A stretch of 64,000 bases of DNA, taken from contig CM055899.1 in assembly GCA_029582155.1 (NCBI GenBank), positions 84,290,056 to 84,354,055 on the forward strand, read 5' to 3'. Positions within the stretch are counted from its first letter, which is position 1, and the number at the start of each line of letters is the position of its first letter. The stretch is from Panopea generosa (taxonomy: Eukaryota; Mollusca; Bivalvia; Adapedonta; Hiatellidae). Positions 2,252-51,080 of the stretch are shown here, piece by piece. The notes under the pieces are model-generated. The model had not been told where the DNA came from. It did no database searches and saw only the letters and a program-made list of their open reading frames with translations. The translations under genes and the position numbers were made by a program.

Positions 2252-2449
2252 ATGGATTCTACAACAGAACAAAAGATGGTCGGGTGTCAATTAAGACAAA
2301 TTGGTGATTTAATGATAAAAATACATGAAGAAAAACGAGCGAATCGCGCCGAGAAGATGGAACAGCTGAAGCTGACCATGCGGACATTGTTGATGAGTCT
2401 GATGCGGGGAATGGCGGAGATTAACAGATATAGAGACTGCATCTCATGA
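2252..2449 (+). CDS. BH3-only-like small protein 1
   Basis: Predicted 65-residue protein. Residues 10-25 contain VGCQLRQIGDLMIKIH, which fits the BH3 pattern: conserved Leu14, a hydrophobic residue three positions on (Ile17), the Gly18-Asp19 pair, then Met21 and Ile24 on the same helix face. Residues 26-40 are charged, and 41-54 form a short methionine/leucine-rich hydrophobic segment. BH3-only proteins insert this helix into the groove of anti-apoptotic BCL-2 proteins; that role is inferred from the motif. The start at 2252 is preferred because it has A at -3 and G at +4 and gives a Met-Asp-Ser start like the paralogues. An in-frame ATG at 2159 would add 31 residues. TGA is followed 8 nt later by CAG|GTAAGG (donor 2457/2458), and an acceptor ends at 2881, giving a 424-nt intron after the stop. 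No BH1 NWGR motif is present, so a multidomain BCL-2 protein is unlikely. A chance motif match remains possible, but the two related genes downstream argue against it. Confidence 0.6.
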   Translation: MDSTTEQKMVGCQLRQIGDLMIKIHEEKRANRAEKMEQLKLTMRTLLMSLMRGMAEINRYRDCIS

Positions 2450-2457
2450 TGAGACAG

Positions 2458-2881
2458 GTAAGGTGTTTAACACTAGCAGCATAATTCCTACTTCATACGT
2501 TGGTAAACACATGTAAACACATGTAAAGTAAACACATCTTAACACATAATAATTAAACACATGTAAACATATGTAAAGTTTACACAAGTAAAATAAACAC
2601 ATGTAAAGTATATACATGTAAAATCAACACATGAATAGTAAACACACGTTAAGTAAACACATGTTTGATGCCCGACATCTCAAACATATCATCTATAAAC
2701 TCTGCTGCAGTATATGGATTATCTTCTAAAAGCTATTAAAACCCCAAAACAATCGTTCTCTCAAGTTCTTTTCAAATTTCTTACAAGAGTCAGGATGATA
2801 TATGTAAAGCTGCAGATACCATGCTACAGGTACTGAAAATATTGTAATCAATGACTCATTATGTTTCTATTTATATTTCAG
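2458..2881 (+). other. Predicted intron just after the stop of BH3-like gene 1
   Basis: The donor CAG|GTAAGG and an acceptor after a pyrimidine-leaning stretch ending TTTCAG bound 424 nt. The exon junction would fall 8 nt after the stop codon, close enough to escape nonsense-mediated decay under the usual 50-55 nt rule. The following exon (from 2882) has no clear coding frame, and its end is not defined. Confidence 0.5.
2503..2659 (+). promoter_or_regulatory. Cluster of GTAAACA (forkhead-type) motifs in a degenerate repeat
   Basis: GTAAACA occurs at 2503, 2513, 2528, 2563, 2638 and 2653, with ATAAACA at 2594. This is the core recognised by forkhead (FOX) factors. The sites sit in a degenerate AACACATGTA-type low-complexity repeat inside the predicted intron of BH3-like gene 1. 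The density may simply reflect repeat expansion. Regulatory function is inference only. Confidence 0.3.
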
Positions 2882-3889
2882 GTGTTCTGCAAAAGTGGCC
2901 ACTCTAAAAAAACAAAATTATTCCTGGCGAATGATACGACATAACTGCAGTGTCAGGTTAATACGACACATGTCAGGTTAATAAGACGCATTACGTTACG
3001 ATGCAAGTTTAGGTGGGGGAAGAAGCACCAGAAGTAAACAGTTTTAATTTTGAACCACACACCGAGACTCAATATAGCTTACAACGACCGAGGAGAGACA
3101 AATATATATGCTTATACATAATATGCATATACCATACCCAACCCAGCGAGTACAAACTTTATAATATTCATTGCAAAAGGACTAAAATAGTTGTGAAATT
3201 AGTTATCAAGACAAAGGAAACAATAATATAAATCAACGTTTATCATACGAGTGAGTAGACACAATATCGACGTGACAAATATCGACATTATCTGTGTATA
3301 CGGGAGATAAGACCCGTGTTATGTTTATTTAATACCTGACAACACGGAGGAACCCGACTGAACGTTAGGAGTGTTTAAAATTTAGTTCAGTCACAAATAT
3401 GTTTATAAGTCATACACATGTTGTCACAAAGGACATAATTATACTTGCTACTATTTCTGATATCATATTATGAATACATTTTCACTATGAATGGACATTA
3501 CCTAAATGGATATAAAATGAAAGTTAAGGTTTGTGATTTACGTTGTAATAGATAAAACATTTTCAAAATAGTGTTTTGGATTGTTTTTTGTTTATTGTTG
3601 GTGTGGTATTTATGTTAACAGTACGTTGTTTTACGATTGAATAGTTATATTTCTTTGATAAAATTAAAATATAAAATGTGATTTCTTCTTTGTTTTATAT
3701 ATAGATCTATTTATATAAACAGTAACACCGATACCACATATTCTTGATTCAACTGAATGAGACGTGTTCAATCAAGAAATAGTCGTAGAGACCCCATTGT
3801 ATAAAAATATAAAACACTAAATAATATACAAAAACGAGCAAACCAGTGTAAACAATCATCTCTCAGTGTATGTTTATTTTAGTTAAAAC
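2882..3889. other. Possible 3' exon of BH3-like gene 1, then intergenic
   Basis: The segment just after the acceptor may be 3' untranslated exon. No AATAAA is convincingly placed to end it. The remainder is AT-rich with no gene that I can support. Confidence 0.3.
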
Positions 3890-4060
3890 TTATTTATTTT
3901 ACTTCGATTGTGAAACAAGTTCTTACGACTTAGAAAAATCACGCCCGAAGTCTTCCAGGGTAGATCCCGTACTAAGCATAAGGGGAAAAGGTGTCTAGCT
4001 CAAGGACACCACACATTGTAGTCGCCTTTCAGTTTGTACACGATTACACTGTGAACATGG
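3890..4060 (-). mobile_element. SINE-like element, family V
   Basis: On the minus strand it carries blocks shared with 19930-20115: a GTCCTTGA stretch, ATGCTTAGTAC, a CTTCG(A/G)GCG(C/T)GAT block and a terminal TTTCACAATCGAAGTAAAA. The two copies are in opposite orientation, as expected for a dispersed retroelement. Ends are approximate. Confidence 0.6.
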
Positions 4061-4353
4061 GGCCACCCTTAAAAAAACTTGTTTGCCGTGCTCCTATCTA
4101 CTCACTCAAAATTGCAGTTACCCAAACCTTTTTATTGCCCTTCAAAGCGTTTAATTTATGATTTCTGTCCTTTTTTCTTTAAAATGACTATGCAAAATCA
4201 AAATTTGGCACAAAAAAAGCTACCTACATACCTCAAAACTATACTGGGTCGGAGCATAGCAAACAAACATTTTTTAAGGATAACCTATTTGAAACCTTTT
4301 CAGTATTGAAATAAGTCCTGGATGCGGTTTACCGCCGTTTTTAATACACCATA

Positions 4354-4355
<2 letters not shown>

Positions 4356-4403
<48 letters not shown>

Positions 4404-4444
4404 AGATAATTATTAATATCACAAATAATTATCTCCATATATAT
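4356..4444. repeat. (AT)n tract with 21-bp perfect inverted repeat
   Basis: A run of AT dinucleotides to 4400 leads into a perfect 21-bp palindrome: arms 4394-4414 and 4424-4444, separated by 9 nt and containing GGAGATAATTATT. A related GATAATTA-type arm with an AT tract recurs near 4511-4545. This looks like a small inverted-repeat element with microsatellite expansion. It could extrude as a cruciform. Confidence 0.8.
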
Positions 4445-4545
4445 CTATCATGCATTGTGAATGAGCATCTGAAAAGATCCCAAAAATCGTAAATTCCGTT
4501 GTTGTGAATTTAATTATCTCCCATATATATATATATATATATAGA

Positions 4546-7177
4546 AATCATAGTTGTTGGTAGAGAAGACCTCAAAATGAATCTGACTAGAACCACCGCC
4601 TTTCCGCAACTTACTATCAAACATTCGCACATTAACTCTTTGGGCAAAATTTACTTCTAAACCAATATTTCAGCGGTGAGAGTTAAGTAGAGATGAAACA
4701 GTGGCATGGACCTCTTAGTCATCTAGATCACAAGAGAGAGTGGAAGGACCCTTCAGGGGGAAGGAACGAAGTCAATAGACGATAAACGCAGGCTCATGTC
4801 TGCTGCTTGTGGAAGATATAAACTATTATCACGTTAAACACCATTTACATATAGATACCATTGCATAATGGATTTACTGTTGGTACAGTCAAGTAAACAA
4901 ACAACTATTTTTCCTATCATTAATATCAATGAAAATAAAACGCAATAAAAAAGATTTCCCAAAATATATAACGTATATTTACAATGTATACAATTTCTAT
5001 TTAAATTATTATTTAAAATTAGACAGCACGCGACAGTTTAGATGTTTAGATAAGATATCTTTCTTTTCACATATGTATTGTTATTACGTCTTCTTTGGTG
5101 ATTTATCTGTCTGACAAGCTATATTTTTACCACTTAGTGACCTTTTGTTTACTAAAAGGTGACTGGTTTAATTCTTTACTTTGATAGCTACATAACTATA
5201 GGGTCAGACACAAAGTTAATCTTGTAACGGGCTAACTCATAATACTATTAGATCCTACTACTGTATTTCAAAATAAATCTCAAATCAAGGTTGAGAGATA
5301 TACGATTGCGAAGTAAACCTTCAACATGATAAAGCGTGCAAACTTAATTATGACAAACTGTGTGCTGATATAACGATTAGAAATGTTAATAGTGCATTTG
5401 ATTTGTCGGGCTTTCCAGGTCAATGATGGCATTATGTGGGTTATATAGATAACGGACCTTGTATACGCCTGGCGTTGTATAATGTGTATGAAAGTACAAA
5501 AATATATCTGTAATTGTTAAACGTCGTCTTAAGCATATTAAAGTTATGTATGGTTATCCGTGATATTGCTGGGAAAATACCCCCATGACACGTGCGTCTG
5601 AGTAGAAAGTAGCCAGACATTCAAAGTCAATGAGGCAATTTCACATCTGAATTTGCTGGTACGACAACCCCCCCCCCCCACCCCTCGCCCACCCCTGCCC
5701 CCTCCCCACCCCACCACACACCCACCCATTGAAACTGTTTAGGTCCTTTAATGCATTAATTGCGTTTTCCTGTTATTTCAGAGCAATTTTAAGCTCATAA
5801 ATAATGATTAAACAAGAGGGATACAATGTAATTCATTTTAGTATTTCAGAAGGATCTTCTTTCTTTTTTTCTTACAACGTGATTATGCGAAATTCATACA
5901 ATGTAAAATGACAAGACTTATACCATGTGTAAAGTCAGTCATCATGATATTGTAGTTTCAATAATAGGTACAATGATTCCTTCAATGAAACCCAGTTACA
6001 GTTTATGAACCATCCAATACAGGGAGTGGAGTTTGTTCCTACACCTCTCGTTTCTTGGGGTTTATTGTTTTAATGTAGAGCATTAATGAGTAATCTAATA
6101 TGTTTTCATGAATATAATGTATTTATTTTAAATGTTGAACCGCTGGACAGATATATTTGTACCCTGGGTCCGCCAACGATATGTTTGGTTATGCGAAAAT
6201 ACTTAATGTTAACATTAACTCTCAACAAAACATCAGAAATAGAATACATATTACATGTATAATGTACATTAGTATGCTGCAAATAAGTAATCGAAAATTA
6301 AAAAAAGTTTTGTTTATGCACATTAAAATGAAGCTTCTATATGGGATATGGGACTTATGAGTAAGTATGTCTTGAACATGACGCGTTGGAAATGAAACAT
6401 GCAGTTATAAAACCATGCCGAAACATTTATACAAATGTATACTGTTAATGGAATGGTTTGTACTAAATAAAGACACCAACTCATTACTTCGTTAGAATTT
6501 CAGACTGATTCAAAGGGAACTCCCTTGTTTAGGATATAGCAAAAGTATACCGAATGACGCCATGCCCAAGTTGGGCTTCAGTCAGAAATTATAACGCAGG
6601 TACTCACGTCAACTTTTTAAAATAACAATGTTTCGCTGTTGCTATATTTATTCCATTTCCAATCATCTTTTGCCTATATATCTCTATACATAGTACAACT
6701 TTCATCGTATACAGTTTAACTGGGTGATACAATAATATATCACTGTATTTTCTATGAAAGGTAATTTTTATAATATGACAAAAGAGAAGAGATCGGATGC
6801 AACTATTAACCAAAGTTTTCTGCCCTAACATGGCCAATTGCCAAACTCTTCTGATAGTCGATGACAAAAGCTTTGAAAGCTATATATAAATATATGGTCG
6901 GAACGCGTGAGCCATTACCTGCATTTGGTAAAACCCAATGCACCGAAGGGAAGATAGAGTGATGACAAACATCATACAGATTAAAAAGCTCTGAAATTAG
7001 AAACTGGTTTCCTTGAATATGTTTTCACTATAAAAGGTGAAAGACAAAATATTAATTTACATAATATAATATCATAACTGCTGCAGTTCTGATTTTACTT
7101 GACAACTGAGTTTCTACATAAAGTGACATAATCGTAGCTTATGTATTGTAAACTATATAAAACTGAGAACTTTAATT
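4546..7177. other. Intergenic between BH3-like genes 1 and 2
   Basis: No supported gene. There is a C-rich, G-poor low-complexity tract at about 5669-5730, whose minus-strand Gly-rich frame is spurious. The rest is AT-rich with only short open frames lacking recognisable motifs. Confidence 0.4.
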
Positions 7178-7423
7178 ATGGAATCAGTCTCTACGGACGG
7201 CGATTACACTTTCACCGAGTACGTTACCAACACGGACGTGTTAAGAGAAAACAGAAACCTTGGCAGCCAGTTAAGGATAATGGGTGACCAATACACAGCC
7301 AGGTGTATAAACAACACCTGCACCGCAAATATCAACATTATTGATCGTTTCGCAGTGGTTTTATTGAATTCAGTTTGGAAAGGGGCCGCAGTCATGTACT
7401 ATTACAGAGATTCATTTCCGTAA
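7178..7423 (+). CDS. BH3-only-like small protein 2
   Basis: Predicted 81-residue protein. Residues 28-43 read LGSQLRIMGDQYTARC, a BH3-type core with Leu32, Met35, Gly36-Asp37 and a hydrophobic Tyr39. Residues 58-77 (FAVVLLNSVWKGAAVMYYYR) form a hydrophobic segment that could anchor the protein in the outer mitochondrial membrane, as in other tail-anchored BH3-only proteins. The ATG has A at -3 and G at +4 and starts Met-Glu-Ser, like genes 1 and 3. It is the most divergent of the three, with Ser for Cys before the core. TAA is followed 15 nt later by AAAG|GTAATT (donor 7438/7439), and a candidate acceptor TTAG ends at 8124, giving a 686-nt intron after the stop, the same arrangement as in its relatives. 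Expected role: a pro-apoptotic ligand of BCL-2 proteins, by inference. Confidence 0.55.
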   Translation: MESVSTDGDYTFTEYVTNTDVLRENRNLGSQLRIMGDQYTARCINNTCTANINIIDRFAVVLLNSVWKGAAVMYYYRDSFP

Positions 7424-7438
7424 TATAAAAAAATAAAG

Positions 7439-8124
7439 GTAATTAATAATTTCTTTCTAATATACCTCACGGTATAGCGGTTGTTTTTCGTTTAAAAAGA
7501 ATTATCACCAAACAACAGACATAAAGGAATTCTTCATATTTCTCTTTTAAATTATATCTGATACTGTGATGACGAGATAGCGAAATAGAGCATTTGTAAA
7601 CTGGATTTAATCTCCTGCGTGACAGTTTTGCCATTGCATGGTCCATTCAAGGTGGTATCCTTCTGTATGTTTGTCTTTATTTTATATATTCTATTAGTTA
7701 AAATTAGTTTCAATATATCCTTCATTTGATATAAATACGCCCTTATGAACAGTCAAACTTGGTTTAATCAATAATAAGATTAAAGGAATGAAAGGTATTA
7801 TGTTTTATACTTTGTCACAGTACAATAACATGGCACACGACCATGACTCATATAAGGTATATATACATGTATTAATACTACGTGCTTAAATTATGTTATA
7901 TTCGGACATTATCTCAGTGGGAATAATTCTATATTAAATATTAAATTAATTACTGTTTTTAGTTATTGTTTTTCGAAAGATTTATATAGATTCAATTAAC
8001 TATTTATGTCATTATATTAAACTAAGACGAATTAGATAACAGCACAATTTGATTGACATATGGTAATATATATGTGGAAGTAATGTTGCTTGTATTTTAA
8101 TATTAAAGTTGTTTGATTTGTTAG
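7439..8124 (+). other. Predicted intron just after the stop of BH3-like gene 2
   Basis: Bounded by AAAG|GTAATT and ...TTTGTTAG. It parallels the introns that follow the stop codons of genes 1 and 3. Expression is not shown. Confidence 0.4.
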
Positions 8125-8392
8125 GTGGAAGATGTATACAGACGATCATGAAATCCCAGGCAAGACTTTTGATCCACTGGTGGAGACTGTTGCAACCAGT
8201 ATGGCCGTTATTGTTGGCATACATTCCGGAACGAAACTGCCTGCATTTGAATTAATTGAGAAAACAATCATGACACTGGTGTCAACTAATACACAAACAA
8301 CAACAACACAGTGGCGTTAACGAAGATACACACACGACAATGTTGCCAACTAAGACAAAAACAAAACGACAATATTGTTAAAGACGAATAAA
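8125..8392 (+). other. Possible terminal exon of BH3-like gene 2 with AATAAA
   Basis: It begins after the acceptor at 8124 and contains AATAAA at 8387-8392. A 62-codon open frame (8132-8320) lies within, but its 3' part overlaps degenerate repeats of a GTCAACTAA(G/T)ACA-type unit, so I treat it as probable untranslated sequence. Confidence 0.3.
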
Positions 8393-9466
8393 CAGGACAT
8401 TGATGTCAACCAAGACACATGCAACACAACATAGATGTTAAAATGAAAGCCATGTCTTAAACTAACTTAACTATCTTAATTTATATGAAACTATTATAAT
8501 ATATTTCTGATATATGATTGGCCAATTTTTTGGTAATATAACAATAAGACATTTTGATTGTTATATAAGTGTTTCCCTTGACATTGGAAATGATAACCTT
8601 GACTCTGAAAAGGATAAGAGGATTTAAAGGATAATATAATAATATGTTTAACCCTGATTGTCTTTTAATAGTTCAATATTTAAACATGAAAACAGGGTTT
8701 AATTACGACACTATTGTAGAGCTGTGTTTGATACAGTAGATATGGTGTTGATCGCTAACGCCAGGCTCGAACCAATGACCCTGAAATCAACAATACCATG
8801 TTTTCGTCTATACAGTAAACGAATTCGAGAAGGCGGTTCGCATAAACTCTCGGCTTTCTTTGTGACCAAGTTAAAAATGTAAATTATAATATAATATTAT
8901 AATGGTTTACAACAATGTATATACCTAATGTTCAGAAACGTTGATTTAAAGTATTAAATAAAAGCATTATGAATATTACTAACTTTTCTCTCAATTAATA
9001 CACTCATCATTATAATGGAGTAACACTGGCGTATATTTTACTTGAACGCTTAAAATCTGATTTTGTCTGATAATTAGAAATTCTTTAATCAGTGTCATTG
9101 TTACCTTGATGTATTCATCTCAAAATACCATGAATTTAAAAATCTGCTTAGCATGGCATTAAGGTAACACTGCTTTGAACAACGGGGCCTGTAAATGACA
9201 TCCTTTTAATTGGAAGATTAAAATCTAATACGCACTTCTACGGATCTGCGTATAATCCTCGTCCGTCTGTATGCTACATAACTGGTAGATGAAGTAACTA
9301 ATTTAATATATTCTGACCAAGCTGGACTCGAACTCATGACTTCAACTTCTGCTAGTATCGAGCATGATTCCTATCAAATATCTTTTTATAAAAATATAAA
9401 CTTAATTATAATGTTCATGTAAAATAATTCTAAACCGCATCGTTGAGGTATCTTTGTATAATTAAG
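8393..9466. other. Intergenic, no gene seen
   Basis: AT-rich sequence without a supported gene or clear repeat. Confidence 0.4.
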
Positions 9467-9625
9467 TACAGTTAAACCTGTGTAAGCTGTCACCTCTATA
9501 AAGCAGTCATATTTCTCAATTTCTATGCTTTCAGAGTAAATTAAACTGAATTAAGCAACAACCTGTCTTAAAAGGCCACTTTTACTTATTCCCTTGACTT
9601 GCTGCTTAAGACAGGTTTTACTGTA
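9467..9625. mobile_element. MITE-like element with about 21-bp terminal inverted repeats
   Basis: It begins TACAGTTAAACCTGTGTAAG and ends with the near-complement CTTAAGACAGGTTTTACTGTA, giving about 159 bp with imperfect terminal inverted repeats and no coding capacity. A 51-bp internally deleted relative lies at 11022-11072. Related sequence with the CTGTCTAAGACAGCCAC motif occurs near 26818-26945 and 34523-34660. Confidence 0.65.
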
Positions 9626-10414
9626 TTTATAACGTGTATACTTAAATGATGACATATTATGTCAATATGTATGAAACCATTTTGACATAAGAACAACACA
9701 TACATAGATATATGTAGCTCTTAGCTAGCAATGACAAGTACGTGCAGGGCCGTGAATGAGAGGTGTAAAATCGATTAAGATTATTAATGATCTGTTTATT
9801 AACTAATCGACGGAGCGATTGTGCATTTGGCAGGCTGTTGACTGCTCATGTGAGAGATCACGAGTTATCAAACATGCAACCAGATAGTCCTCAGTAATAA
9901 AACTCATTACTGTTTGTAAACAGGTAAAATACTCGACAGCGGTTCACAAAAGTTCTGAGTTAAGTTACGATCGGGCTCAAATGATTTAGTGCAAAACGCA
10001 GTCACTACCAAATATTAAATTTTATAACCCAAATTACTACATTCTCGTAGTCTTTATACAAGAAATACGTACTGGTGACACTTAACGTGACATTTGACCT
10101 GACAATGGTATAAAGATTCCCTCACGTGGACATGTAACACAATTAACAACGAAACAACACTGCACGTGCATCAACGAGGCGATTTACATGCTCATCAAAT
10201 ATATTAACTCTAAATAAGTTCAGCCTGCCAGAAAAAAAATCTAACCATCATTGGACGTAGCACTTTAAAGAGCAAAGCCATCAGAAGGCTCAGACATGTA
10301 TACACATCGATAAACACATTCGGCAGCTTATATACCATTACTCTTTGCACACGGTCTCATATTAAACATTCAAATTCATTTTTGCATAGCGGCAGTATTT
10401 ATTTTGTTTAAGGG
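9626..10414. other. Intergenic, no gene seen
   Basis: No coding frame or clear repeat that I can support. Confidence 0.4.
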
Positions 10415-10640
10415 TCCTTCGTGGCCGAGTGGTCTAAGGCGCCGCCTGGGGACCGCTAAAGTCGGAAAATCGAGCCTCGCTATCTCATAAGCTTTATGTG
10501 AGAAAGTTTGTCAGTTACTTGCAGTACGGTGGTTCTACTCAGATTCTTTCCAACGTCGTCCTCCACCAATAAAACTGGATATGCCATATTAACGTGAAAT
10601 TTGCTAAAAAAAAGTGTTTAATCATATCAAAAAAGCAATG
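10415..10640 (+). mobile_element. tRNA-derived SINE, family II
   Basis: The head reads GTGGCCGAGTGGTCTAAGGC, a tRNA-type A box (Leu/Ser-like). The body contains GGTGGTTCTACTCAGATTC and CACCAATAAAACTGGATAT, with an A-rich/GTTTAA tail. The copy at 43305-43530 shares the body and tail. The T-arm is degenerate, so it is not a functional tRNA gene. Confidence 0.75.
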
Positions 10641-11021
10641 ATATGATTCAGTTTGTTATTAAAATAATTTTGCTAAAGTTAGATAAAAATAGATCATGAT
10701 AATTTATGAAGCGTTTAAATTGTCACCTGTCAAACGTTCTGTTTAATCACCAGTTACTATACTAATGCTGTGATGTAATCTTTGACTCATTCTTCTTATT
10801 GATATTTCATGCCAGACTGGAAGGAAATAAACTTGTATACTCATGTCATGTTGATATAGGCACTTGTGGCTGTTAAAAGGTTGGCCAAAACATAGGGAAG
10901 TAAATGTACAAGGTTATTGACTTTGTACTTTGTTTTAGAATCGTGACATTAACAAAGCCAGCAATCAATATAGGGTATACTCCTATACAACATAAGACTC
11001 ATACCTATTTTTATTGATACA

Positions 11022-11072
11022 TACAGTCAAACCTGTGTAACCTGTGTCACCTCTATGACAGGTTTGAATGTA
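11022..11072. mobile_element. Deleted derivative of the TACAGT MITE
   Basis: It starts TACAGTCAAACCTGTGTAA and ends TGACAGGTTTGAATGTA, 51 bp in all. The ends match the element at 9467-9625 but most of the interior is missing. Confidence 0.6.
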
Positions 11073-11532
11073 TATATTTCCTTGTGTGATTCACTATGTT
11101 TGTTGTTGCTTATATTTACTTGCCGTAAACGTATTTTCAATTTAAATTGTAAGTTAAAGTTGAGAGAACCCTTTTCTTAAAATCGTACATGATTATATGA
11201 ACAAATTGTAATGAAATTTATGTCTATATGGCAATACGATATGTTTAATTGAGAAACCCTCCATAATCCTTGACATGGACAATTATAGTGATAACCTGTT
11301 TATTCATCTTTTCAATTATACAGACATTGTGTACAACCACACGTCATTCACATAAGGTATATTATATCAAATAAAGTTACTAGTATATCATCCAAGATAT
11401 TCACCTTAAACCGCTGGGTAAATTTTACCAACCGCTCGTATGAGTAATCAACCGCAGATAAAATAATGTAAATAATCACAGATAAAATCACCAACGTACA
11501 ACTAACAATGTCTAGTATAGACAATTAGACAC

Positions 11533-11775
11533 GGTGGAGTTACCGCAGTGGTCATCTAGCTGTAGAGCGATCTCCTCGCATGCGGACGGTCGTGGTTCGA
11601 ACCACGATCGGGTTATACCAAATACTTCAATAATGGTACCAGAAGCTTGCTCTTGGTGATAAGCATTTACAGTATATTTTAGGTCTGCTTTGACCGGTGT
11701 CAGTTTAATATGATTGGATGGGCGACCATCATATCATGTGCCTGCAACATGATACTCCGGTGTTGACTGTCCCAA
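11533..11775 (+). mobile_element. tRNA-derived SINE, family I
   Basis: The head contains CTGTAGAGCGATCTCCTCGCA and a B-box-like GGTTCGAACC, followed by TTATACCAAATACTTCAATAA and a body ending CATGATACTCCGGTG. It matches the minus-strand copy at 478-703 along the length. Confidence 0.75.
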
Positions 11776-13567
11776 GTATACACCGTCGTGATATGACTAA
11801 TAAATTGTTGAAAACGACAGTAAACATCATACAAGAAACAATTACCGGGGAGGATGTGTACAGGTCAAAACATTATTCCGTAAATTAAAACGACATTATA
11901 CCCATATTACAAGGTGTAATCTACGAAATAACCTCAAAACCTGTGTATCCATACTGCAAAGGCGGACTATGCTATCTTTATAACAATGTTTACAATAACA
12001 TTGTTTCGTGACGTCCCTGTCCTATATTTTATTGATAATTAGTTGAATTAACATACTTACATATATTCGCAAATTCAACGGTTTTAAATGTCAATTAAAA
12101 TAATAATTAAAATCGTAATTATTTGTATTTCGGTTGGCATTTATTGATACGAGACATTTTCTTATCGCTGAAATCGTGAATTCAACTCGAGTTAAATACT
12201 TTGTACGAGAAAGTGCTATTACTTCCGGAAAGGCGGTGTTTCACTACTCCGATTATACTTCTTTTATTTTTAATGGTCAAAATATGGTTTTGAAAATCAA
12301 CCCCTTCACGTTTATATTAAAGATAAATCATTTTGATATATAAACTGATTCCGCCTTACGATTAAGTTTAGTATCTATTAAAAAATATAATGTAAAAGCC
12401 TGCCAAAACTCTAAACAATTTGTCATACTACTGTTCTGTAGAAAGAATAGACCTTGGTTTAATATATTACTCACCTTTCATATTTTACCTATGCCTTGAT
12501 AAAGTCATTTTCTATTTTTTGTCAAAGATAAAACTAAAATATCGTTTATCATAGTATTTATAAATAAACTATACATTTATATCTTTCTTGGAGACCTGAA
12601 TTCTAATTAAGTAAACCATAAATACGTGCAAGAGACCCCGTGCTAGATAATCATGACTAATACTGCACTGCAGCACATCGCACATATTAATAACGCAATT
12701 TAGTCCCGGTGACACACTGCCGTCTATATTTGTCTGATTATGGGCTCATCGAGGGTAAATTATGGTAACCAGGTCAGCATCAGTTATACATATCATTTGA
12801 ACAGTTTTAATCTAGCTCACGTCATTACTTAATGAAACACATAGCTATTTAAAAGAAGCGGTTGCATTTACTATTTTATACTGATAAAAGTGCCAGCTAT
12901 ACACATAAAGCAATTACATTGATAGAACAATGCAATTATGCAATTGAAACTACAAAGTGTAGCTATTCAAAATGTTGAAATGGAACTTGTGTTGTTCATA
13001 AACAATTGCACCACATATAAATTCTAACATAAAGGGATATGAATATGATTATCATTTGAGAAGCATGGTTATTGCCTCATTTGATATTTAGGTTTCATAT
13101 GATTATCACTTTCTAGTTTTCATATGAGAATCGTATGTGGCTCAGTGACCTGTACACTACACGTGCTTATCGTGGTATGCTAGAAATACCCAGGATCATC
13201 GGCCGTTGGGATGATTCCCCCAACAGAACCTTGTGCTTTATCCTTGAGATAGCCACGGTATCCGCATATACTTAGCACTGATTTGTTACCTCATTTATGG
13301 ATTGTTTTATGTTTGTAAGAATTGGTTTGAAAATAAACCCGTGTTACCTTACCTTATACAAACCGCCAGTCTGTTTAATGGGGGTGCTGAGTGCAAACCA
13401 TGTAATAACGCCATCGATAATGTGGCAATTTTATTTTTACACGCTTATTCTTTTGTTAAATATACAATATACCGATTATCCAATATAGATTGCATCTCGA
13501 AAATACAAATAGAAGAAAGGGTCATTGCACAAAGCAGTTTGTGAAGCATATCATTGCTAAAGTAAAC
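11776..13567. other. Intergenic, no gene seen
   Basis: AT-rich. A fragment near 13190-13285 shares the ATACTTAGCAC-type block of SINE family V. No supported gene. Confidence 0.35.
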
Positions 13568-14961: not shown

Positions 14962-17900
14962 AATGCCGGCCAATAGCTGTATATAGCGAATGTTTATTGG
15001 GTTATACCCCATATGCCGGCCAATAGCTTTACATAGCTAATGTTTATTGAGTTATACCCCATATGTCGATAAATAGCTTTACATAGCTAAAGTTTATTGG
15101 GTTATACCCCATAGTCCGTCCAATAGCTGTATATAGTTGATGATTATTGGGTTATACAATATATGCCAGCCAATAGCTTTACATATCTAATGTTTATTGA
15201 GTTATACCCCATATGCCGGCCAATAGCTGTACATAGCTAATGTTTATTGGGTTATACCCCATATACCGGCCAATAGCTGTACATAGCTAATGTTTATTGG
15301 GTTATACCCCATATGCCGGCCAATAGCTGTACATAGCTAATGTTTATTGGGTTATACCCCATATACCGGCCAATAGCTTAACACAGCTAATGTTTATTGA
15401 GTTATACCCCATATGCCGGCCAATAGCTTTACATAGCTAATGTTTATTGGGTTATACCCCATATGTCGGCCAATATCTGTACATAGCTAAAGTTTATTGG
15501 GTTAAACCCCATATGCCGGCCAATAGCTGTACATATCTAAAGTTTATTGAGTTATACCCCATATGCCGGTAAATAGCTGTACATAACTGATGATTATTTG
15601 GTTATACAACATATGCCGGCCAAAAGCTTTACATATCTGATGTTTATTGAGTTATACCCCATATGTCGGCCAACAGCTGTACACAGCTTAAGTTTATTGG
15701 GTTATATCCCATATGCCGGCCAATAGCTTTACATAGCTAAAGTTTATTGGGTTATACCCCATATGCCGGCCAACAGCTGTACATAGCTAATGTTTATTGG
15801 GTTATACATCATATGCCGACCAATAGTTCTACACAACTAACTTTTATTGGGTTATACCCCATATGTCGGCACATAGCAGTACATAGCTAAAGTTTATTGG
15901 GTTATACCGCATATGCCGGCGAAAAGATGTACATAGCTAATGTTTATTGGGTTATACCCCATATGCTGGCCAATAGCTGTACATAGCTAAAGTTTATTGA
16001 GTTATACCCCATATGCCGGCCAATAGCTGTACATAGCTAAAGTTTATTGGGTTATACCCCGTATGCCGGCCAATAGCTGTACATAGCTGAAGTTTATTGG
16101 GTTATACCCCATATGCCGGCCAATAGCTGTACATAGCTGAAGTTTATTGGGTTTTATCCCATATGCCGGCCAATAGCTTTACATAGTTAAAGTTTATTGG
16201 GTTATACCCCATATGCCGGCCAACAGCTGTACATAGCTAATGTTTTTTTAGTTATACATCATATGCCGACCAATAGCTGTACATAGCTAACGTTTATTGG
16301 GTTATACCACATATGTCGGCACATAGCTGTACATAGCTAAAGTTTATTGGGTTATACCCCATATGCCGGCGAATAGCTGTACATAATTAACGTTTATTGG
16401 GGTATACCCCATATGCCGGCTAATAGCTGTACATAGCTAACGTTTATTGGGTTATACCCCATATGTCGGCCAAAAGCTGTACAAAGCTGAAGTTTATTGG
16501 GTTATACCCCACATGCCGGCCAATAGCTGTACATAGCTGAAGTTTATTGGGTTATACCCCACATGCCGGCCAATAGCTGTACATAGCTAAAGTTTATTGG
16601 GTTATACTCCATATGCCGGTCAACAGCTGTACATAACTAATTTTTATTGGGTTATACCCCATATGCCGGCCACCAGCTGTACATAGCTTAGGTTTATTGG
16701 GTTATATCCCATATGCAGGCCAATAGCTGTACATAGCTAAAGTTTATTGGGTTATACCCCATATGCCAGCCAACAGCTGTACATAGCTAATGTTTATTGG
16801 GTTATACATCATATGTCGGCCAATAGCTGTACATAGCTAAAGTTTATTGGGTCATACCCCATATGTCGGCCAATAGCTGTACATAGCTAATGTTAATTGG
16901 GTTATACCCCATATGTCAGCACATAGCTGTACATAGCTAATGTTTATTGGGTTATACCTCATATGTCGGCCATGGCTGTACATAGCTAAAGTTAATTGGG
17001 TTATATCCCATATGCAGGCCAATCGGTGTACATAGCTAAAGTTTATTGGGTTATACCCCATATGCCTGTCTAAAGCTGTACATAGCTATTGTTTATTGGG
17101 TTATACCTCATATGTCGGCTAATAGCTGTACATACCTAAAGTTTATTGGGTTATACTCCATATGTCGGCACATAGCTGTACAAAGCTAAAGTTTATTGGG
17201 TTATACTTCATATGTCGACACATAGCTGTACAATGCTAAAGTTTATTGGGTTATACCCCATATGTCAGCCAATAGCTGTACATAGTTAATGTTTATTGGG
17301 TTATATCCCATATATCGGCACATAGCTGTACAAAGCTAATGTTTATTGGTTGATACCCCATATATGGGCACATAGCTGTACATAGCTAATGTTAATTGGG
17401 TTATACCCCATATGCCGGTTAAGAGTTTTACATATATAATGTTAATTGGGTTATACCCCATATGTCGGCACATAGCTGTACAAAGTTAATGTTTATTGGG
17501 TTATACCCCATATGTCGGCACATAGCTGTACATAGCTAATTTTTTTGGGTTATACCCCATATGTCGGCACATAGCTGTACATAGCTAATGTTTATTGGGT
17601 TATACCCCATATGCCGGCCAAAAGCTGTACACAACTAAAGTTTATTTGGTTATACCTCATATGTCGGCCAATAGCTGTACACAGCTAAAGTTTATTGGGT
17701 TATACTCCATATACCGGCCAATAGCTGTACATAGTTAACGTTTATTGGGTTATACCCCATATGCCGGTACAAAGCTGTACATAGATAATTTTATTGGGTT
17801 ATACCCCATATGTCGGCACATAGCTGTACATAGCTAATGTTTATTGGGTTATACCCCATATGCCGGCCAATAGCTGTACACAGCTAAAGTTTATTGGGTT

Positions 17901-18603
17901 ATACCTCATATGTCGGCCAATAGCTGTACACAGCTAAAGTTTATTGGGTTATACTCCATATACCGGCCAATAGCTGTACATAGCTAATGTTTATAGGGTT
18001 ATACCCCATATGCCGGTACAAAGCTGTACATAGATAATTTTATTGGGTTATACCCCATATGTCGGCACATAGCTGTACATAGCTAATGTTTATAGGGTTA
18101 TACCCCATATGCCGGCCAATAGCTGTACACAGCTAAAGTTTATTGGGTTATACCTCATATGTCGGCCAATAGCTGTACACAGCTAAAGTTTATTGGGTTA
18201 TACTCCATATACCGGCCAATAGCTGTACATAGCTAATGTTTATAGGGTTATACCCCATATGCCGGTACAAAGCTGTACATAGATAATTTTATTGGGTTAT
18301 ACCCCATATGTCGGCACATAGCTGTACATAGCTAATGTTTATAGGGTTATACCCCATATGCCGGCCAATAGCTGTACACAGCTAAAGTTTATTGGGTTAT
18401 ACCTCATATGTCGGCCAATAGCTGTACACAGCTAAAGTTTATTGGGTTATACTCCATATACCGGCCAATAGCTGTACATAGCTAATGTTTATAGGGTTAT
18501 ACCCCATATGCCGGTACAAAGCTGTACATAGATAATTTTATTGGGTTATACCCCATATGTCGGCACATAGCTGTACATAGCTAATGTTTATTGGGTTATA
18601 TTT
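14962..18603. repeat. Satellite array, 50-bp unit, about 73 copies
   Basis: The unit contains ATGCCGGCCAATAGCTGTAC, ATAGCTAATGTTTATTGG and GTTATACCCCAT. The period is 50 bp, read directly from the spacing of GTTATACCCC (15001, 15051 and so on). Copies in the first part differ by scattered substitutions. From about 17.5 kb, several units are 49 bp and the array becomes hierarchical. Open frames inside it are repeat products. Confidence 0.95.
17764..18600. repeat. 249-bp higher-order repeat within the 50-bp satellite
   Basis: The variant block CCGGTACAAAGCTGTACATAG appears at about 17764, 18013, 18262 and 18511, exactly 249 bp apart. Each block is followed by the same series of variant monomers (five per unit). 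Neighbouring 249-bp units are almost identical while monomers within a unit differ, which indicates recent amplification of five-monomer blocks. Confidence 0.9.
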
Positions 18604-19929
18604 CACGCGGAATATCAATAAAATTTTATATTTGTATCTTGTTGTATCCATGTCTGTGTTCTAATTATAGAAACTTATTAGTGATATATAATAATAACCT
18701 TTTCAATAATTAAACGAAAGTTCATGAGCAGGATTTTTAATTAATAATTAAAAACAAAATCATTGAATCAGATTGACTTGTAACCGTCACATTTCCACAA
18801 TGACGTATTGTTTACCAACGGTTATTTTGATATGTACTCGAATACTTGTAGAACATATTACACAATGATATCCAACGTTTCTAGATAACAACATCGTATT
18901 ATTTATATATCACCTTGATAATTTCTAGTTAAATATTGACATTGCCTATTATAACATTCTTTCAATTAGAAAAGAAATATAACCAAACTCGTTTATTATT
19001 TATGTATCTCTCATGGCCTGTAGATCATATTGACTCATTCAATCACAAGTTCTGACGTCCTCTATTTTTCCATTTCTTTGTTTCGTTCTTCTACACTTCC
19101 TTCTTTCTGTCATGCATTCAGCTAGTGTTTGATTTTTGCCCATCCTCCAGTACATCAACCCACCCGGCGAATCTCCATACACCCATCCCATCCATGCATA
19201 CATACGTCCATTCGTGCACCAATCCATTCAGGATTACACCGTTCGTTTGTGGACTATGTTAGTGTATATCTATATATATACCGACTATGGCTAAGTTAGG
19301 TTGTTTTGGTATACGTGTATAAGCAGGCATACAGTTAGCAATAAACATGGTTCTAACTGCAACAATCATTGTGGAAATGACAATTTTCTCAAATTTTACA
19401 AATTGACCAAAACTGGATTATAAGTAAATCCTCGTATTTACAACTCCCAGTCGAAAATTCGAATCCGGGTTGCATTGATGCCAAGCCAGTAAACTCCTAG
19501 AATGACAGATATTAACAAAATACAGGGAGCTCTTTTTATGCAAAATTATTATATATAACTTATTTAAAAAGATACATGCCCGCATGTGAACAGTCATTCG
19601 GTTTATTAAATAAGTTATACAAGTCATTTTTTAAGTAAAAAAAAATACATGCATACAGTTATGACATTGACGACATCAGGAAGTATAAAACGGAAGGAAA
19701 TAACTATACTATAAACCCAGATTGTAAGTATACCACGTTAGTCCATAATAATATAGGTCAATCGTATATAAATGACGCAATCTTGTGGATTTTACTAAAT
19801 GGATTTTATTAGGTTTACACGTTGATATAATCATGACAATGCAATTTTCTTTACATTGTTGGTTCATATATTGACTCCTTATATAAATGTAGTTAAAACT
19901 AAAAGGGACAAGTGATAATTTCAAAACCG
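18604..19929. other. Intergenic, no gene seen
   Basis: AT-rich sequence downstream of the satellite. No supported gene. Confidence 0.4.
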
Positions 19930-20115
19930 ACTGGACTCATGATCAATATCGAATGAATGATTGGAAATTCGATTCTCCCTCACGGCCAGGTGATGTGTCC
20001 TTGATCAAGACACTTTATCCACATATGCTTAGTACTGTTTCTACCAAAAACGACTTCGAGCGCGATTTGTGTTAGTTGTGAATACATGTTTCACAATCGA
20101 AGTAAAACAATTAAG
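19930..20115 (+). mobile_element. SINE-like element, family V
   Basis: Plus-strand copy of the element at 3890-4060. It has GTCCTTGATCAAGACAC, ATGCTTAGTACTG, a CGACTTCGAGCGCGATTTG block and TTTCACAATCGAAGTAAAA at the end. Ends are approximate. Confidence 0.6.
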
Positions 20116-20331
20116 TTTAAACATACCCGTATAACAATATATCAATTGACTAAAGCTATAATACAACTATCTGAAACTGCATATTTTGTAAGTTTTTACA
20201 GTTTTAATGTAACTAGTTCTGGCGCACATGTTTTGAATATATGAGCATAAATCTATATAAATACACTTTGATCATTCCCCTAACATTTGATTAATTAAAT
20301 CAATTCAAACGTATGACAAAAGATTTTTATT

Positions 20332-20478
20332 GTTGATTGATTGAATATTTAGCGTCATTTAATGCCATCGAGGGCTAACAGACGATCAGTTAACCTAACC
20401 ACTGTTTCCTGGGATCCAAGAAGGTTAACCAGTATTCGACCACACTCCATCTCCGCAAGTAACTGATAACTTTCCAAC

Positions 20479-20528
<50 letters not shown>

Positions 20529-20660
20529 CAATGTTAAGCGTCATTACTATGCCATCGAGGGCTATCAGACGATCAGTTGACCTAACCACTGTTTCCTGGG
20601 ATAAACCAGTACTCGAGCACAACCAATCTCCGCAAGTAACTGATAACTTTCCCACTTGAT
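20332..20660. repeat. Two direct copies of a roughly 150-bp block around (GATT)n
   Basis: The block with GCCATCGAGGGCTA, CAGACGATCAGTT, CTAACCACTGTTTCCTGGGA and CGCAAGTAACTGATAACTTT is present twice, separated by a (GATT)n tract at about 20481-20528. The second copy runs directly into the SINE at 20655. The tract gives rise to a spurious Ile-Asn-Gln-Ser frame on the minus strand. Confidence 0.85.
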
Positions 20661-20812
20661 TCAGTGATCAGAGAGGAATGATAATGAGGCACCGTGTCGT
20701 ATACCAATCATCCTGGAGACTGCTGCTGGTTGGGGATTCGAAGTCACGACCCCTGGATTGATAGTCAGACGCGTCACCGAGTGAGCTAATCAAGCCCGGC
20801 TGGATTATTAAG
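20655..20812 (-). mobile_element. tRNA-derived SINE, family III
   Basis: On the minus strand: GCCGGGCTTGATTAGCTCAC, then TGACTATCAATCCAGGGGTC and a B-box-like TTCGAATCCC, followed by a body ending TCATTATCATTCCTCTCTGA. It shares head and tail with 22255-22410, so it is a dispersed element. Confidence 0.75.
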
Positions 20813-21276
20813 AAGATTAAACAACACAAAAGTGCAATTGTTGAAATTGCATACAATAAGGATTTTATTCATATACATTTATCCAAATGAAAACATCCTG
20901 CATCATTTTTTGTATAACAAATCCACATTGTTGGCTGAGCTTAAGAAATTATATTCTTTTTTTTTAAGAACATTTTAATTGAATGTCAGACCTAACAAGT
21001 AATCCCACCATTAATAAAATATGTGTATGCTTTACTCCGACCACTCAGTGTTATAAATGTGTTTAGTTATTTAGTTGTTTTTTTTTTTAACAATTAATTT
21101 TCATAATCATGGACAGAAATCATAAAAATCAAATTCCAATACTTTGAAAGTCAATATTAAATTTTAGGTAGATGAAAGTTCAGTTAGTAGGTAAAAACAC
21201 GACAAACTGTTATTTTTTAAGAATGCCCTAAATAACATTAAAATGTGTCACCATTATCAATTCAAAGTAGCTGGCC
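20813..21276. other. Intergenic, no gene seen
   Basis: AT-rich sequence, no supported feature. Confidence 0.4.
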
Positions 21277-21470
21277 AAGAATGAGGGTCGTAGTGTTATG
21301 AATAGTGTTGGCCGCTCAAGCAGGAGGTAGCGGTTTCGATCTCCAGCTCCATCCGATGCCTTTCATAAAACAACACTCAGTACTGGTTCAATTCAGGAAA
21401 TGGACTCGAAACTGGTTCATATAAGTTTTCATCACAATTGAAGATTCTTCACAATGGAACTAAAATAAAG
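21277..21470 (+). mobile_element. SINE-like element, family IV
   Basis: The head has TAATAGTGTTGGCC-type sequence and GGTTTCGATCTCC (box-B-like). The body has CAGTACTGGTTCAATTCAGG, and the 3' end AATGGAACTAAAATAAAG. A related head fragment (GTAATGGATAGTGTTGGCCA) is at about 22228. Ends are approximate. Confidence 0.6.
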
Positions 21471-22211
21471 TATAAACTAAGTAACTGTTATATATAGCAG
21501 CTAGTGAAAACATGCATATAAATTAATTTGATCGATAAGCACACACAGCTTACACGTAAACTAGTAATAAAATATAAATTTTGGGTGACTGACTTAACAT
21601 GGAAAAAATTGAATGAAATGGAAACCAGAAACTTGCAATGCATGTTTAATTTCTAAGTCAAATGAAAACAAAGATTTATGATAATTTAACATCACTTACA
21701 TATTTATTAAAGACGTGTCTAAACCGCCAGTAACTCCTGTTACACTCAGCGAGTTACGACCAATCACATCCATGATAGCCTCCGTCACCGCAATTAGCTG
21801 TTTCGGTGCTGGACCTAAAAATTGTAAATATTTATGAAATCAAAAGAATACAATTTTTTCCATACACCTTAAACACTAAAATGGAAATTCTGCATACAAT
21901 GCATGTTATGTAAGAACCATATCATACCTTAATTTCAATATACAGGTAGCGAAAGTTTCACTACATACATGTGGTTGAATTTTATTATTTGTTCAATATA
22001 AAGTAAGGTATATTAGTATAGGATTTCCATGTTACAAAACATAGATAGGTTTTAAAAGTGTTTATTTCCATACCAGAAATGTATCCGTTAAACATAAAAC
22101 AATAACTGTTGGTCAGCTTGTATTTTTTAAAGACAGTGCATTGACAACCTTAATTGAAAAAAAAAAATGTTATAATTAATACATCCATGTGTTAAATAAT
22201 CCTATAAAAAA
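21471..22211. other. Intergenic, no gene seen
   Basis: AT-rich sequence. A pyrimidine-rich or splice-like region near 21710-21820 has no long coding frame. Nothing I can support. Confidence 0.3.
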
Positions 22212-22410
22212 AACAGGGGCGGCAGTGTAATGGATAGTGTTGGCCACTCACACCAACTGAGCTAATCGGGCCCGGTGAGAGACGAATGATAATGAGACGA
22301 AATGTCGTTTATCAAACATCAGGGAGACTGTGGCCGAGCGGGGATTCGAACTCACGACCCCTGGATTGATAGTCAGACGCGCTAACGACTGAGCTAATCG
22401 GGCCCGGCTG
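22212..22410 (-). mobile_element. tRNA-derived SINE, family III, next to a family IV head fragment
   Basis: On the minus strand: GCCGGGCCCGATTAGCTCAG, TGACTATCAATCCAGGGGTC, GAGTTCGAATCCCCGCTCGG, and a body ending TCATTATCATTCGTCTCTCA. A partial second head (AGCTAATCGGGCCCGG, plus-strand text) follows at about 22259. At 22218-22250 lies a fragment resembling the head of the element at 21277. This is a nested or composite insertion. Confidence 0.7.
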
Positions 22411-25235
22411 AAAAAAAGAAAAAACATTCAACAATTCACCAAATTTATTCTTAAGTATGATTACAACTCCGATCAAACATTCATAAAGCCCTTTTATCAA
22501 ATTGAAAGCAATTTAAAAAGCACATACTAGGAGATTTTAATTTCACCCTTGCATCATGTAGATAGACATATCATTTTCAGAAAAAAAATTGAGGTAACTT
22601 AATTGGTTAGATGCATCTGTAGTTTGATCTCTCCACGGGTGGTTTTGCCTCTGACCGTTGCCAGGCGATAACCTGCTGTCTTTTCTCTATGTTGTATTGT
22701 ACTTATCAGTGACTTTTTTTGTTTCACTTTTGCGTCATGCAGATAGACATGATCATTTTCAGAAAAAAAATATTGAGGCAACTTTGTTGACCTCTTTCGT
22801 TTTGGTCATTCCGTAATCAGTATAACTGTTTATAGAACGAAGCAATGAATGCTGCCAGCCAATATCATACATTGCGCTATTTATAAACATATCAATATTA
22901 TATCATTTTATATTTTCATTAAACAGTTAACGTGTTTCAAATCATTATATTACCACTAAGTGACGCTTACGTACAATCAGAGCTAGTGACGTCATCTGGG
23001 GAAACTCATTGAATGCAAAACTATATATTCTTAGGACGACGCACATGATTAAAAAAGTTCCAGTTGCTTATTGAAACCAGGCCAAACAGGAGTGATCCTA
23101 AACAAAATGATTTGTCATTAAGCCTTAACATATATGAACGGTTACATAAAGAACTGCATTTAAACAATTGTCATAGAAAAGCATATGTCATCGTTATATA
23201 GGTGACATTCTCTTTACTTAAGATAACAACACTTTGTCTCAAGCCGACAATTTAGTGTTAAAAAAGCATATGCCGATAGTCCTGTTTCACCAACACGTAC
23301 TTTTTTTAAGTAGATAACACTCGATGTCGATTTATCTAAATTACGGAACTTTTTACAATGGAACACCTGTATTCAGTGCTCTGTCTTTAATCAATTAATG
23401 AATGCGTTTACTTTTTTGTTAATCCCAAATATTGAAAAAAGATACACATATGTATATACATGTATGTGGCATTTGCGTCAGTTTAAAAAGAATGAGAGAG
23501 AATAACGGTAATTTTTGGATTCCTCTCTGTAAGCGCGAAAATAACACCAATCAGCTTTTGATAATATCTGAAAGGATTGGTACAAATGTTGAAGAGTAGT
23601 TCTGCATTCCAACTGTAAAAAGACATTTAGCTTAAATGGAAATCTAAATACATTTCAAGTGATAACACACGTTTGATATCACTTAAAATGAGAAAATTTA
23701 ATATACAATATGATTTATTATATATATACTTTGTTAGAAAGGGTGGTGTATTCTTGCAGCTGGGAAACTAGTGCTGTATGTTTTTTTACCTTTTTAAATT
23801 CCTGTTTATAGATGGCACCTGTACCATATTGCCAGATTTGAATGATCATGGGCGCGTTTTGTGGAAAATGACAGCATTAAGATATATATAGTGGTACATT
23901 GGAACGGCTTAATATTTGGCCACGGCTACATAGGTGTTATCATACAACTGGACTTTGTTACATATCAATCTAGTCGAATTGTTGTTGTTTTCTTAATACT
24001 CGTATTTTGATGACTTATTGATTTTTTAAGTAATTAATTGATGATATGTCATAGTGCATAATCTTTAACAAAACATCGAAATAGGACATGTATATCATTA
24101 TGATTAGATTAAGTTTTTAGTTTTTATCATATTAAATTGTTTCCAACCATATACATGTAAATGCTGCCTTATTTGTTAGACTGTAGGCTAATATATTTTC
24201 TGCAACTTTTGTACAATACATACCAATAATCTACGAAAGAAACTTTATGCATGTATCTGGGCATAAAGACATATAGAGAATTTGTATTTGTATGATCAAA
24301 GGCTTGACAACGCTTTATAAAAACAAATGAAAACCTTTCTTGAAAAAGAAAACAATAATGTTTTCTCTTCTTAGTTTGAATACTAGTAGTACAGAAAGAG
24401 AACACAAACAAAATGTATCTAATGTAATGCGGTAAGCATGAAGATAAAGTAATTTTCTACTGTCACTAGCTCTCTCTATATATGAAATTAGTTCACCTTT
24501 TTTCTTTCAATTTATTAATAGGACATTGATACTTCATTATATTCGTTATATTCTCTGTCTAGGATTATTTCAACATACACATATATTCATTAACATTCAC
24601 CGATTGTTGTATATATCTGCGTACAATAACAGTTTATCTTATGACTTTATGCCAATACAACCACAAAATATTTGTAACGTTGTACTTTAAGCAAACGTAA
24701 TACAATCAATGATAACGTTATTTATATCACAATAACATAATGCCAGATTTAGTTATAATGTTTACATTAAACGATCGCATGTTCATATGTGTGTCATATT
24801 GTCTCGAAATAAATTAAAATGTTGAATATACCCTTGCATTTTGGTTAGTATGTTATAACAATTATGATAAACTGTACACTATACTTACCTATGATAACTT
24901 GATATTCGTTAAAACCACTAGATAACGCAAGTGTGAGCGGTATTTTGGTTTAACTTTAAATATATTTTTCTAAAAATAGAAAAATAAAACTTTCCCAATA
25001 ATAAGGTGACATACACATAAACTATATAATATACTTATCTTAGCACACTACATCAGTTTAGTCAAACGTTCAGAACAGTTCTCTAATTGTGTTTTCAAAT
25101 TTAATACATAAACATTTAAAACCAATTAAGTTAAAAATTTGATTAACAAATTAGAAGATTCAGATTTTGAACATTGTTTGACATAGAACCAAAGGATATT
25201 TAATGTATACTTACAAAATTCGTTTAGAGAAGAAA

Positions 25236-25463
25236 ATGGAAACACCAACAATGGAAGTGATGGATAAAGATAACGACTTGACCAGGCACATTGGCTGCCA
25301 GTTGAGGCACATTGGTGATTCAATGATGATAATATACAGCGAACGTAAAGATAGACGGAGAAATAACAAGAACCAACCGAGGTTAGCAGACGCCTTGCAG
25401 ACATGGGTGGTGTTCCTCTGGGATTGTGTCGTATGGTTAACACCACACTTACGTGGTGTATAA
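25236..25463 (+). CDS. BH3-only-like small protein 3
   Basis: Predicted 75-residue protein. Residues 19-34 read IGCQLRHIGDSMMIIY, the clearest BH3 core in the window: Leu23, Ile26, Gly27-Asp28, Met30 and Ile33 spaced as on one amphipathic helix face. Residues 35-49 are basic and polar (SERKDRRRNNKNQPR). Residues 55-69 (LQTWVVFLWDCVVWL) are a tryptophan-rich hydrophobic segment that could insert in or dock on a membrane. The start is at 25236 because it has a strong context (A at -3, G at +4) and is conserved at the matching place in both broken copies. An upstream in-frame ATG at 25203 has a poor context and is not conserved. TAA is followed by one base and GTAGGT (donor 25464/25465), and the acceptor TTGCAG ends at 26096. 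Inferred role: a pro-apoptotic ligand of BCL-2 proteins. It is the only intact copy among the three duplicons. Confidence 0.65.
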   Translation: METPTMEVMDKDNDLTRHIGCQLRHIGDSMMIIYSERKDRRRNNKNQPRLADALQTWVVFLWDCVVWLTPHLRGV

Positions 25464-25464
25464 T

Positions 25465-33514: not shown

Positions 33515-33562
33515 TCACTCACTCACTCACTCACTCACTCACTCACTTACTTACTTACTTAT
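33515..33562. repeat. (ACTC)n then (TTAC)n microsatellite before the acceptor
   Basis: Tetranucleotide tract just upstream of the acceptor ending at 33570, at the same place as the (TTAC)n tract in duplicon A and the shorter tract in C (about 40787-40808). Confidence 0.9.
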
Positions 33563-33570
33563 AATTACAG

Positions 33571-51055: not shown

Positions 51056-51080
51056 CATTGATAAACGACGCCGTGTAATA

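Follow-up and report, generated by a model that had tools for sequence, protein, structure and literature searches.

A candidate BH3-only gene family, one member of which has two broken copies, in a 64-kb segment of the Panopea generosa genome

Three same-strand frames carry a BH3-like core

Three short open reading frames (ORFs), here called ORF1, ORF2 and ORF3, lie in a 64-kb stretch of DNA from the bivalve Panopea generosa (GenBank assembly GCA_029582155.1, contig CM055899.1, positions 84,290,056 to 84,354,055 of the forward strand; the whole stretch is referred to as the window and is numbered from its first nucleotide), and each encodes a small protein with a motif resembling the BH3 helix of BH3-only proteins. 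ORF1 (2252-2449, 65 aa), ORF2 (7178-7423, 81 aa) and ORF3 (25236-25463, 75 aa) share the + strand, and the reading frame continues 5' to a further ATG in both ORF1 (2159) and ORF3 (25203). The ATGs from which these lengths are counted all have A at −3 and G at +4, and the encoded proteins begin with MDS, MES and MET, so that the Met-(Glu/Asp)-(Ser/Thr) starts and the lengths of 65 to 81 residues described in the initial annotation were found as described. The BH3 cores are MVGCQLRQIGDLMIKIHEE in ORF1 (2276-2332, +; h1 V, h2 L, h3 I, h4 M), NLGSQLRIMGDQYTARCIN in ORF2 (7256-7312, +; h1 L, h2 L, h3 M, h4 Y) and HIGCQLRHIGDSMMIIYSE in ORF3 (25287-25343, +; h1 I, h2 L, h3 I, h4 M). All three contain L-x3-(G/A/S)-D and have hydrophobic residues at each of the four BH3 positions h1-h4. 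Pfam gave no Bcl-2 domain (BH1/BH2) in any of the frames, and the reported lack of BH1/BH2 signatures thus stands.

The motif G-x-Q-L-R-x-(I/M)-G-D, by which the same annotation had recognised frames at 2252, 7178 and 25236, occurs exactly three times in the six-frame translation of the window, always on the + strand, in a scan that also accepted Ala at the first place; each copy falls within a stop-to-stop frame of 93-107 codons. It was present in none of 400 order-3 Markov resamples of the window, and the shorter QLRx(I/M)GD appeared in 2 of 400. The looser pattern Lx2(hydrophobic)GD within an ATG frame of at least 60 aa was found three times in the window, compared with a mean of 0.125 and a maximum of 2 in the resamples, 47 of 400 of which were positive. 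A position-specific scoring matrix (PSSM) made from ten human BH3 peptides ranked ORF2 first in the window (16.0), ORF1 second (13.2) and ORF3 third (10.0). The third-best score across 200 resamples was at most 9.7.

Architecture and similarity to known BH3 proteins

The frames have a common layout, in which a short and polar N-terminal part precedes a single putative BH3 helix, followed by a linker of basic or polar character and, at the C-terminus, by a hydrophobic tail. The tail segments, LTMRTLLMSLMRGMA in ORF1 (2372-2416, +), FAVVLLNSVWKGAAV in ORF2 (7349-7393, +) and LQTWVVFLWDCVVWL in ORF3 (25395-25439, +), start 22, 21 and 26 residues past the BH3 Asp, compared with 24, 17 and 24 in PUMA, BMF and BIM, and leave 10, 9 and 7 residues beyond them. 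The hydrophobic C-terminal segment that had been attributed to all three frames is clear in ORF2 and in ORF3, where it is tail-anchor-like, and weak in ORF1, whose segment has the lowest mean hydropathy of the six compared (0.87) and an unfavourable interface energy. AlphaFold2 predicted two helices for ORF3 alone, at residues 7-43 and 50-72 (mean pLDDT 71.7), the second of which covers the tail.

We compared the frames with the C-terminal regions of PUMA, BMF and BIM, each of which was confirmed by its own Pfam model. In hhalign, the profile of the three frames scored 25.4 over 49 columns against the PUMA/BMF/BIM profile, a value never reached in 200 column shuffles (top 13.1). When the motif was kept in place, 200 shuffles reached only 21.2, arguing that the linker and the tail add to the match. 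Single frames scored 14.8 (ORF3), 14.1 (ORF1) and 16.2 (ORF2) against maxima of 14.8, 13.8 and 14.8 in 100 shuffles each, none of which reached the real score. Among the 78 frames of the window that start with ATG and encode 50-130 aa, with ORF1 and ORF3 taken from their first ATG (2159 and 25203), the three frames occupied ranks 1, 2 and 3 against the PUMA/BMF/BIM profile, ORF2 being first.

The 30-aa BH3 region of ORF3 found PUMA BH3 peptides as the best two of 177,635 PDB sequences (14.6 and 14.3 bits; E = 0.26 and 0.32). The score of 14.6 bits places the ORF3 region about as far from PUMA as accepted BH3 families are from one another, because a human BIM BH3 query reaches 16.8 bits on PUMA and 13.1 bits on BMF. 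A profile of the ORF1 and ORF3 BH3 regions gave PUMA, PUMA and PXT1 BH3 as the top three of 12 PDB matches (E = 0.30, 0.30 and 0.42). The Pfam PUMA model (PF15826) matched ORF3 with 16.9 bits (E = 0.0078), below its curated cut-off of 26.4 bits; it listed neither ORF1 and ORF2 nor the vertebrate BIM and BMF parts, and the BIM and BMF Pfam models matched none of the three frames.

Of the known proteins, PUMA (BBC3) is the best match of ORF3 in Pfam and of the ORF3 BH3 region in the PDB, and it shares an IGxQLRx(I/M)xD BH3, a basic linker and a hydrophobic C-terminal segment 24 residues past the Asp. However, the frames have 65-81 residues and the PUMA model has 189 positions, and Gly-Asp is present here where human PUMA has Ala-Asp. 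In BIM (BCL2L11) and BMF, too, a polar linker separates the BH3 from a hydrophobic tail, which starts at a similar distance from the Asp (24 and 17 residues), and BIM also has the Ile-Gly-Asp of the frames. The noncanonical BH3-only protein PXT1, the third match of the ORF1 and ORF3 profile, has a QLRHIGD core, but it is a testis-specific mammalian protein; the part of PMC10298792 available to us reports that its BH3 binds and activates Bak. By the descriptions in the available parts of PMC7022251 and PMC8998228, the schistosome BH3-only proteins and C. elegans EGL-1 can be likened to the frames as protostome BH3-only proteins.

Substitutions between ORF1 and ORF3

A tblastn search with the 96-aa ORF1 frame reached the ORF3 locus with E = 6e-6. 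Across their 14-codon core, ORF1 and ORF3 differ by 11 nucleotide changes, 8 of them at third positions (binomial p = 0.009), with a pN of 0.15 and a pS of 0.77 (Fisher p = 0.002, from rounded counts). Over 31 codons, Fisher's test gave p = 0.025, again from rounded counts, and dN/dS was about 0.25, the synonymous sites being close to saturated. This pattern indicates that the BH3 core has been under constraint at the protein level. Comparisons with ORF2 were set aside as evidence of selection, being either saturated or, for the 14-codon core against ORF3, at a dN/dS of 0.76.

Two broken copies of ORF3 in a segmental duplication

The new observation at this locus is that ORF3 is within a segmental duplication that holds two broken copies of it, at 32712 and 39986. 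The first unit, which carries ORF3 (24812-26363, +), is 76.7% identical to 32330-33849, and 25087-26329 is 81.7% identical to 39844-41063; the ORF3 segment is thus repeated at about 32.3-34.0 kb and 38.8-41.3 kb, each time with a broken ORF3 copy. The second copy (32712-32937, +) has a frameshift in a run of G at 32790-32794, beside the Gly-Asp codons, which could be an assembly error; in addition, its h2 Leu is replaced by Ser, and a further stop is present in the tail in the register of ORF3. In the third copy (39986-40212, +), a stop stands where the codon for the BH3 Asp would be (40067-40069), and the tail is nearly identical to that of ORF3. Changes unique to the second copy are distributed over codon positions 1, 2 and 3 as 13, 10 and 8, and those unique to the third copy as 3, 3 and 8; from these counts, the third copy looks as though it was constrained until recently. 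The dN/dS values of 0.40-0.64 among the three tandem copies were set aside as evidence of selection, as two of the copies are broken. The window contains no second copy of the 2 kb surrounding ORF1 or of the 2 kb surrounding ORF2. Taken literally, the proposal of a tandemly expanded set holds only for ORF3, while ORF1 and ORF2 are diverged relatives at most.

The region from 22605 to 50000 is a complex segmental duplication whose blocks, about 64-86% identical, are mostly direct repeats or, in some cases, inverted ones (as with 37819-37961 and 22787-22642). A block about 0.6 kb 3' of each ORF3 copy (26098-26330, 33572-33764 and 40778-41107) is well conserved and follows an acceptor-like site. 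Downstream of the third copy, this block has a 110-codon open frame with no Pfam match. We rejected the block as a second coding exon, as two of the three copies have early stops (after 7 and 64 codons).

Other features of the window

None of the 15 open frames run against Pfam, of the 97 listed (at least 62 codons, outside repeats, ORF1-3 included), scored above a curated cut-off. A 111-codon open frame at 51033-51365 (+) had no Pfam match at E ≤ 1 and no protein match at E ≤ 0.01. Rfam gave nothing at gathering scores, and a bacterial-type promoter scan over 200 bases, which is irrelevant to this DNA, also gave nothing. Large minisatellites are present at 14963-18600 (unit of about 50 bases), 45829-48619 (about 40), 54696-56660 (about 23) and 62050-63998 (about 51). 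Arrays of the 8-base unit TGTATGGG/TGTATGGT at 28966-29343 and 35650-36070 contain long open frames and no evident gene.

Discussion

We consider it likely that the window holds a small BH3-only family with the PUMA/BIM/BMF architecture, which is turning over by gene birth and death. The earlier designation of the frames as BH3-only-like fits ORF1 and ORF3, as judged by the PDB rank of the BH3 region, the substitution pattern and the architecture of the tail, and fits ORF2 less well; ORF2 is the most divergent of the three and the weakest member. In BIM, PUMA and BMF, the tail directs the protein to the mitochondrial outer membrane and the BH3 helix occupies the groove of a pro-survival protein, so that BAK and BAX are released or activated. 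If the frames are expressed as BH3-only proteins, stress, infection or development would switch the gene on and the tail would take the protein to the mitochondrial outer membrane. The BH3 helix would then fold into the groove of a pro-survival BCL-2 protein, with h1-h4 in the pockets and the Asp directed to the conserved groove Arg. BAK/BAX-type effectors would be freed or activated, and membrane permeabilisation followed by caspase activation would start, by which the putative proteins would kill the cell.

A number of results weigh against this assignment. The part of PMC4072508 available to us states that L-x3-(A/G/S)-D matches more than 10,000 human sites and that BH3s are over-called. 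A lone match to the BH3 PSSM proves little, because the best single score per resample, with a mean of 8.9, reached a maximum of 18.6 in 200 resamples, compared with 16.0 in the window; the BH3 claim rests on the set of three frames and not on any single motif. The BH3 matches in the PDB (E = 0.26-0.42) are individually not significant, and the remaining 9 of the 12 matches of the ORF1 and ORF3 profile, from E = 0.48, are unrelated. The BH3 regions of ORF1 and ORF2, queried singly, had no PDB match at E ≤ 10. With full-length queries no BH3 was retrieved from the PDB: ORF3 matched three unrelated chains (a designed protein at E = 0.18, a tailspike and an IgCAM), ORF1 a calcium-binding protein (E = 0.36) and ORF2 nothing. 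The Pfam PUMA match fell to 14.1-14.2 bits with trimmed pieces of ORF3; ORF1 had no Pfam match, and the sole match of ORF2 was DUF3294 (E = 0.0056; 16.9 bits, below the cut-off of 20.6). Neither ORF3 nor the three-frame alignment found any of 5.8 billion predicted proteins at E ≤ 10, in a search that requires shared 5-residue words and a database that may hold few animal genes, and ORF3 had no homologue in a set of viral contigs that may likewise hold few animal genes. Once the motif was masked, the three-frame profile scored 12.1 against PUMA/BMF/BIM (E = 0.11, not significant). ORF2 is related only weakly to ORF1 and ORF3 by tblastn (E of about 0.3 to 2), and its AlphaFold2 model was unusable, with strands over the BH3 and a pLDDT of 39.8. 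The excess of third-position changes between ORF1 and ORF3 is weaker over longer stretches, at 14 of 29 over 24 codons (p = 0.07) and 20 of 40 over 31 codons (binomial p = 0.02). Finally, of the three tandem copies, ORF3 has 4, 5 and 2 changes of its own at codon positions 1, 2 and 3, and there is therefore no sign of recent constraint on ORF3.

This absence of a third-position excess, together with the fact that two of the three tandem copies are broken, would also be expected if the frames were, like the two broken ORF3 copies, remains of formerly functional BH3-only genes that have lost expression. We regard this explanation as unlikely, since ORF1, ORF2 and ORF3 are intact and have a good start context, and since the comparison of ORF1 with ORF3 points to protein-level constraint on the BH3 core.

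Still less probable, in our judgement, is that the frames are exons, perhaps alternative, of a single larger gene, with a BH3, a tail and a stop in every one. Donor-like sites are found 1-15 nt past each stop codon: CAG/GTAAGG at 2458-2463 (+), 8 nt past the ORF1 stop; AAG/GTAATT at 7439-7444 (+), 15 nt past the ORF2 stop; and AAT/GTAGGT at 25465-25470 (+), 1 nt past the ORF3 stop and identical in both tandem copies. Scored post hoc by a donor consensus against the 4124 GT sites of the window, these putative donors fall in the top percentile, at the 97.5th percentile and at the 95.6th percentile, respectively. Such sites, above the 95th percentile and within 15 nt of each stop, hint that an intron may directly follow the coding part. 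ORF1, ORF2 and ORF3 are also on one strand within 23 kb, and ORF1 and ORF3 are open 5' of their ATGs. Nevertheless, each frame has an ATG in good context, the candidate acceptors in the preceding 90 nt are weak, with a pyrimidine share of 0.33-0.61, and the frames are 5 and 18 kb apart. Moreover, no shared flanking DNA was found: outside the BH3 region, the 2 kb flanking each of ORF1-3 gave no mutual DNA match better than E = 0.01.

Chance open frames in A+T-rich DNA, with a motif chosen by eye, are a very improbable source of the three frames. BH3 motifs are short and easily over-called, as the available part of PMC4072508 says, single PSSM scores as high arise in resamples (maximum 18.6), and no BH3 was found in the PDB for full-length frames; nevertheless, the full motif was in 0 of 400 resamples and is present three times in the window, the frames rank 1-3 of 78 against the PUMA/BMF/BIM profile, and ORF1 and ORF3 show a synonymous bias, all of which already disfavours this explanation. 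It is equally improbable that a mobile element carries the frames as cargo or that their BH3-like helix acts outside the BCL-2 pathway: the region does have complex direct and inverted duplications, but Pfam found no transposase in the 15 neighbouring frames scanned of the 97 listed, the flanks of ORF1 and ORF2 are not repeated in the window, and the four BH3 hydrophobic positions and the tail segment are retained.

The suggestion that clustered BH3-only families are undescribed in molluscs agrees with three papers, as far as their available parts go: PMC5550854 gives a BH3-only homologue as absent from C. gigas and none as identified in Mollusca, PMC3634015 detected no BH3-only protein in bivalves, and PMC8917759 calls BH3-only proteins yet unidentified in molluscs. 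One of the three infers a simpler apoptosis network in molluscs from the missing BH3-only proteins. These negatives concern the canonical set, because squid Bnip3 is termed a BH3-only protein in the available part of PMC9389742. The part of PMC8998228 at hand considers BH3-only proteins potentially present in Lophotrochozoa, and its section 2.4 reports that orthogonal searches across protostome branches failed. According to the accessible part of PMC7831173, some molluscs have huge IAP expansions.

A tentative extension, which we hold somewhat doubtful, is that the likely BH3-only family described here is lineage-specific, tandem and fast-turning, and has a common ancestor with vertebrate PUMA, BIM and BMF, in a phylum reported to be without BH3-only proteins. 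If the genes are expressed in their mollusc host, the reported BH3-only gap would be a failure of annotation, and the upstream triggers of mitochondrial death in molluscs would become directly testable. If descent in common with PUMA, BIM and BMF is also true, the three-part BCL-2 switch would be ancestral and would merely have been missed because its genes are tiny and fast-evolving.

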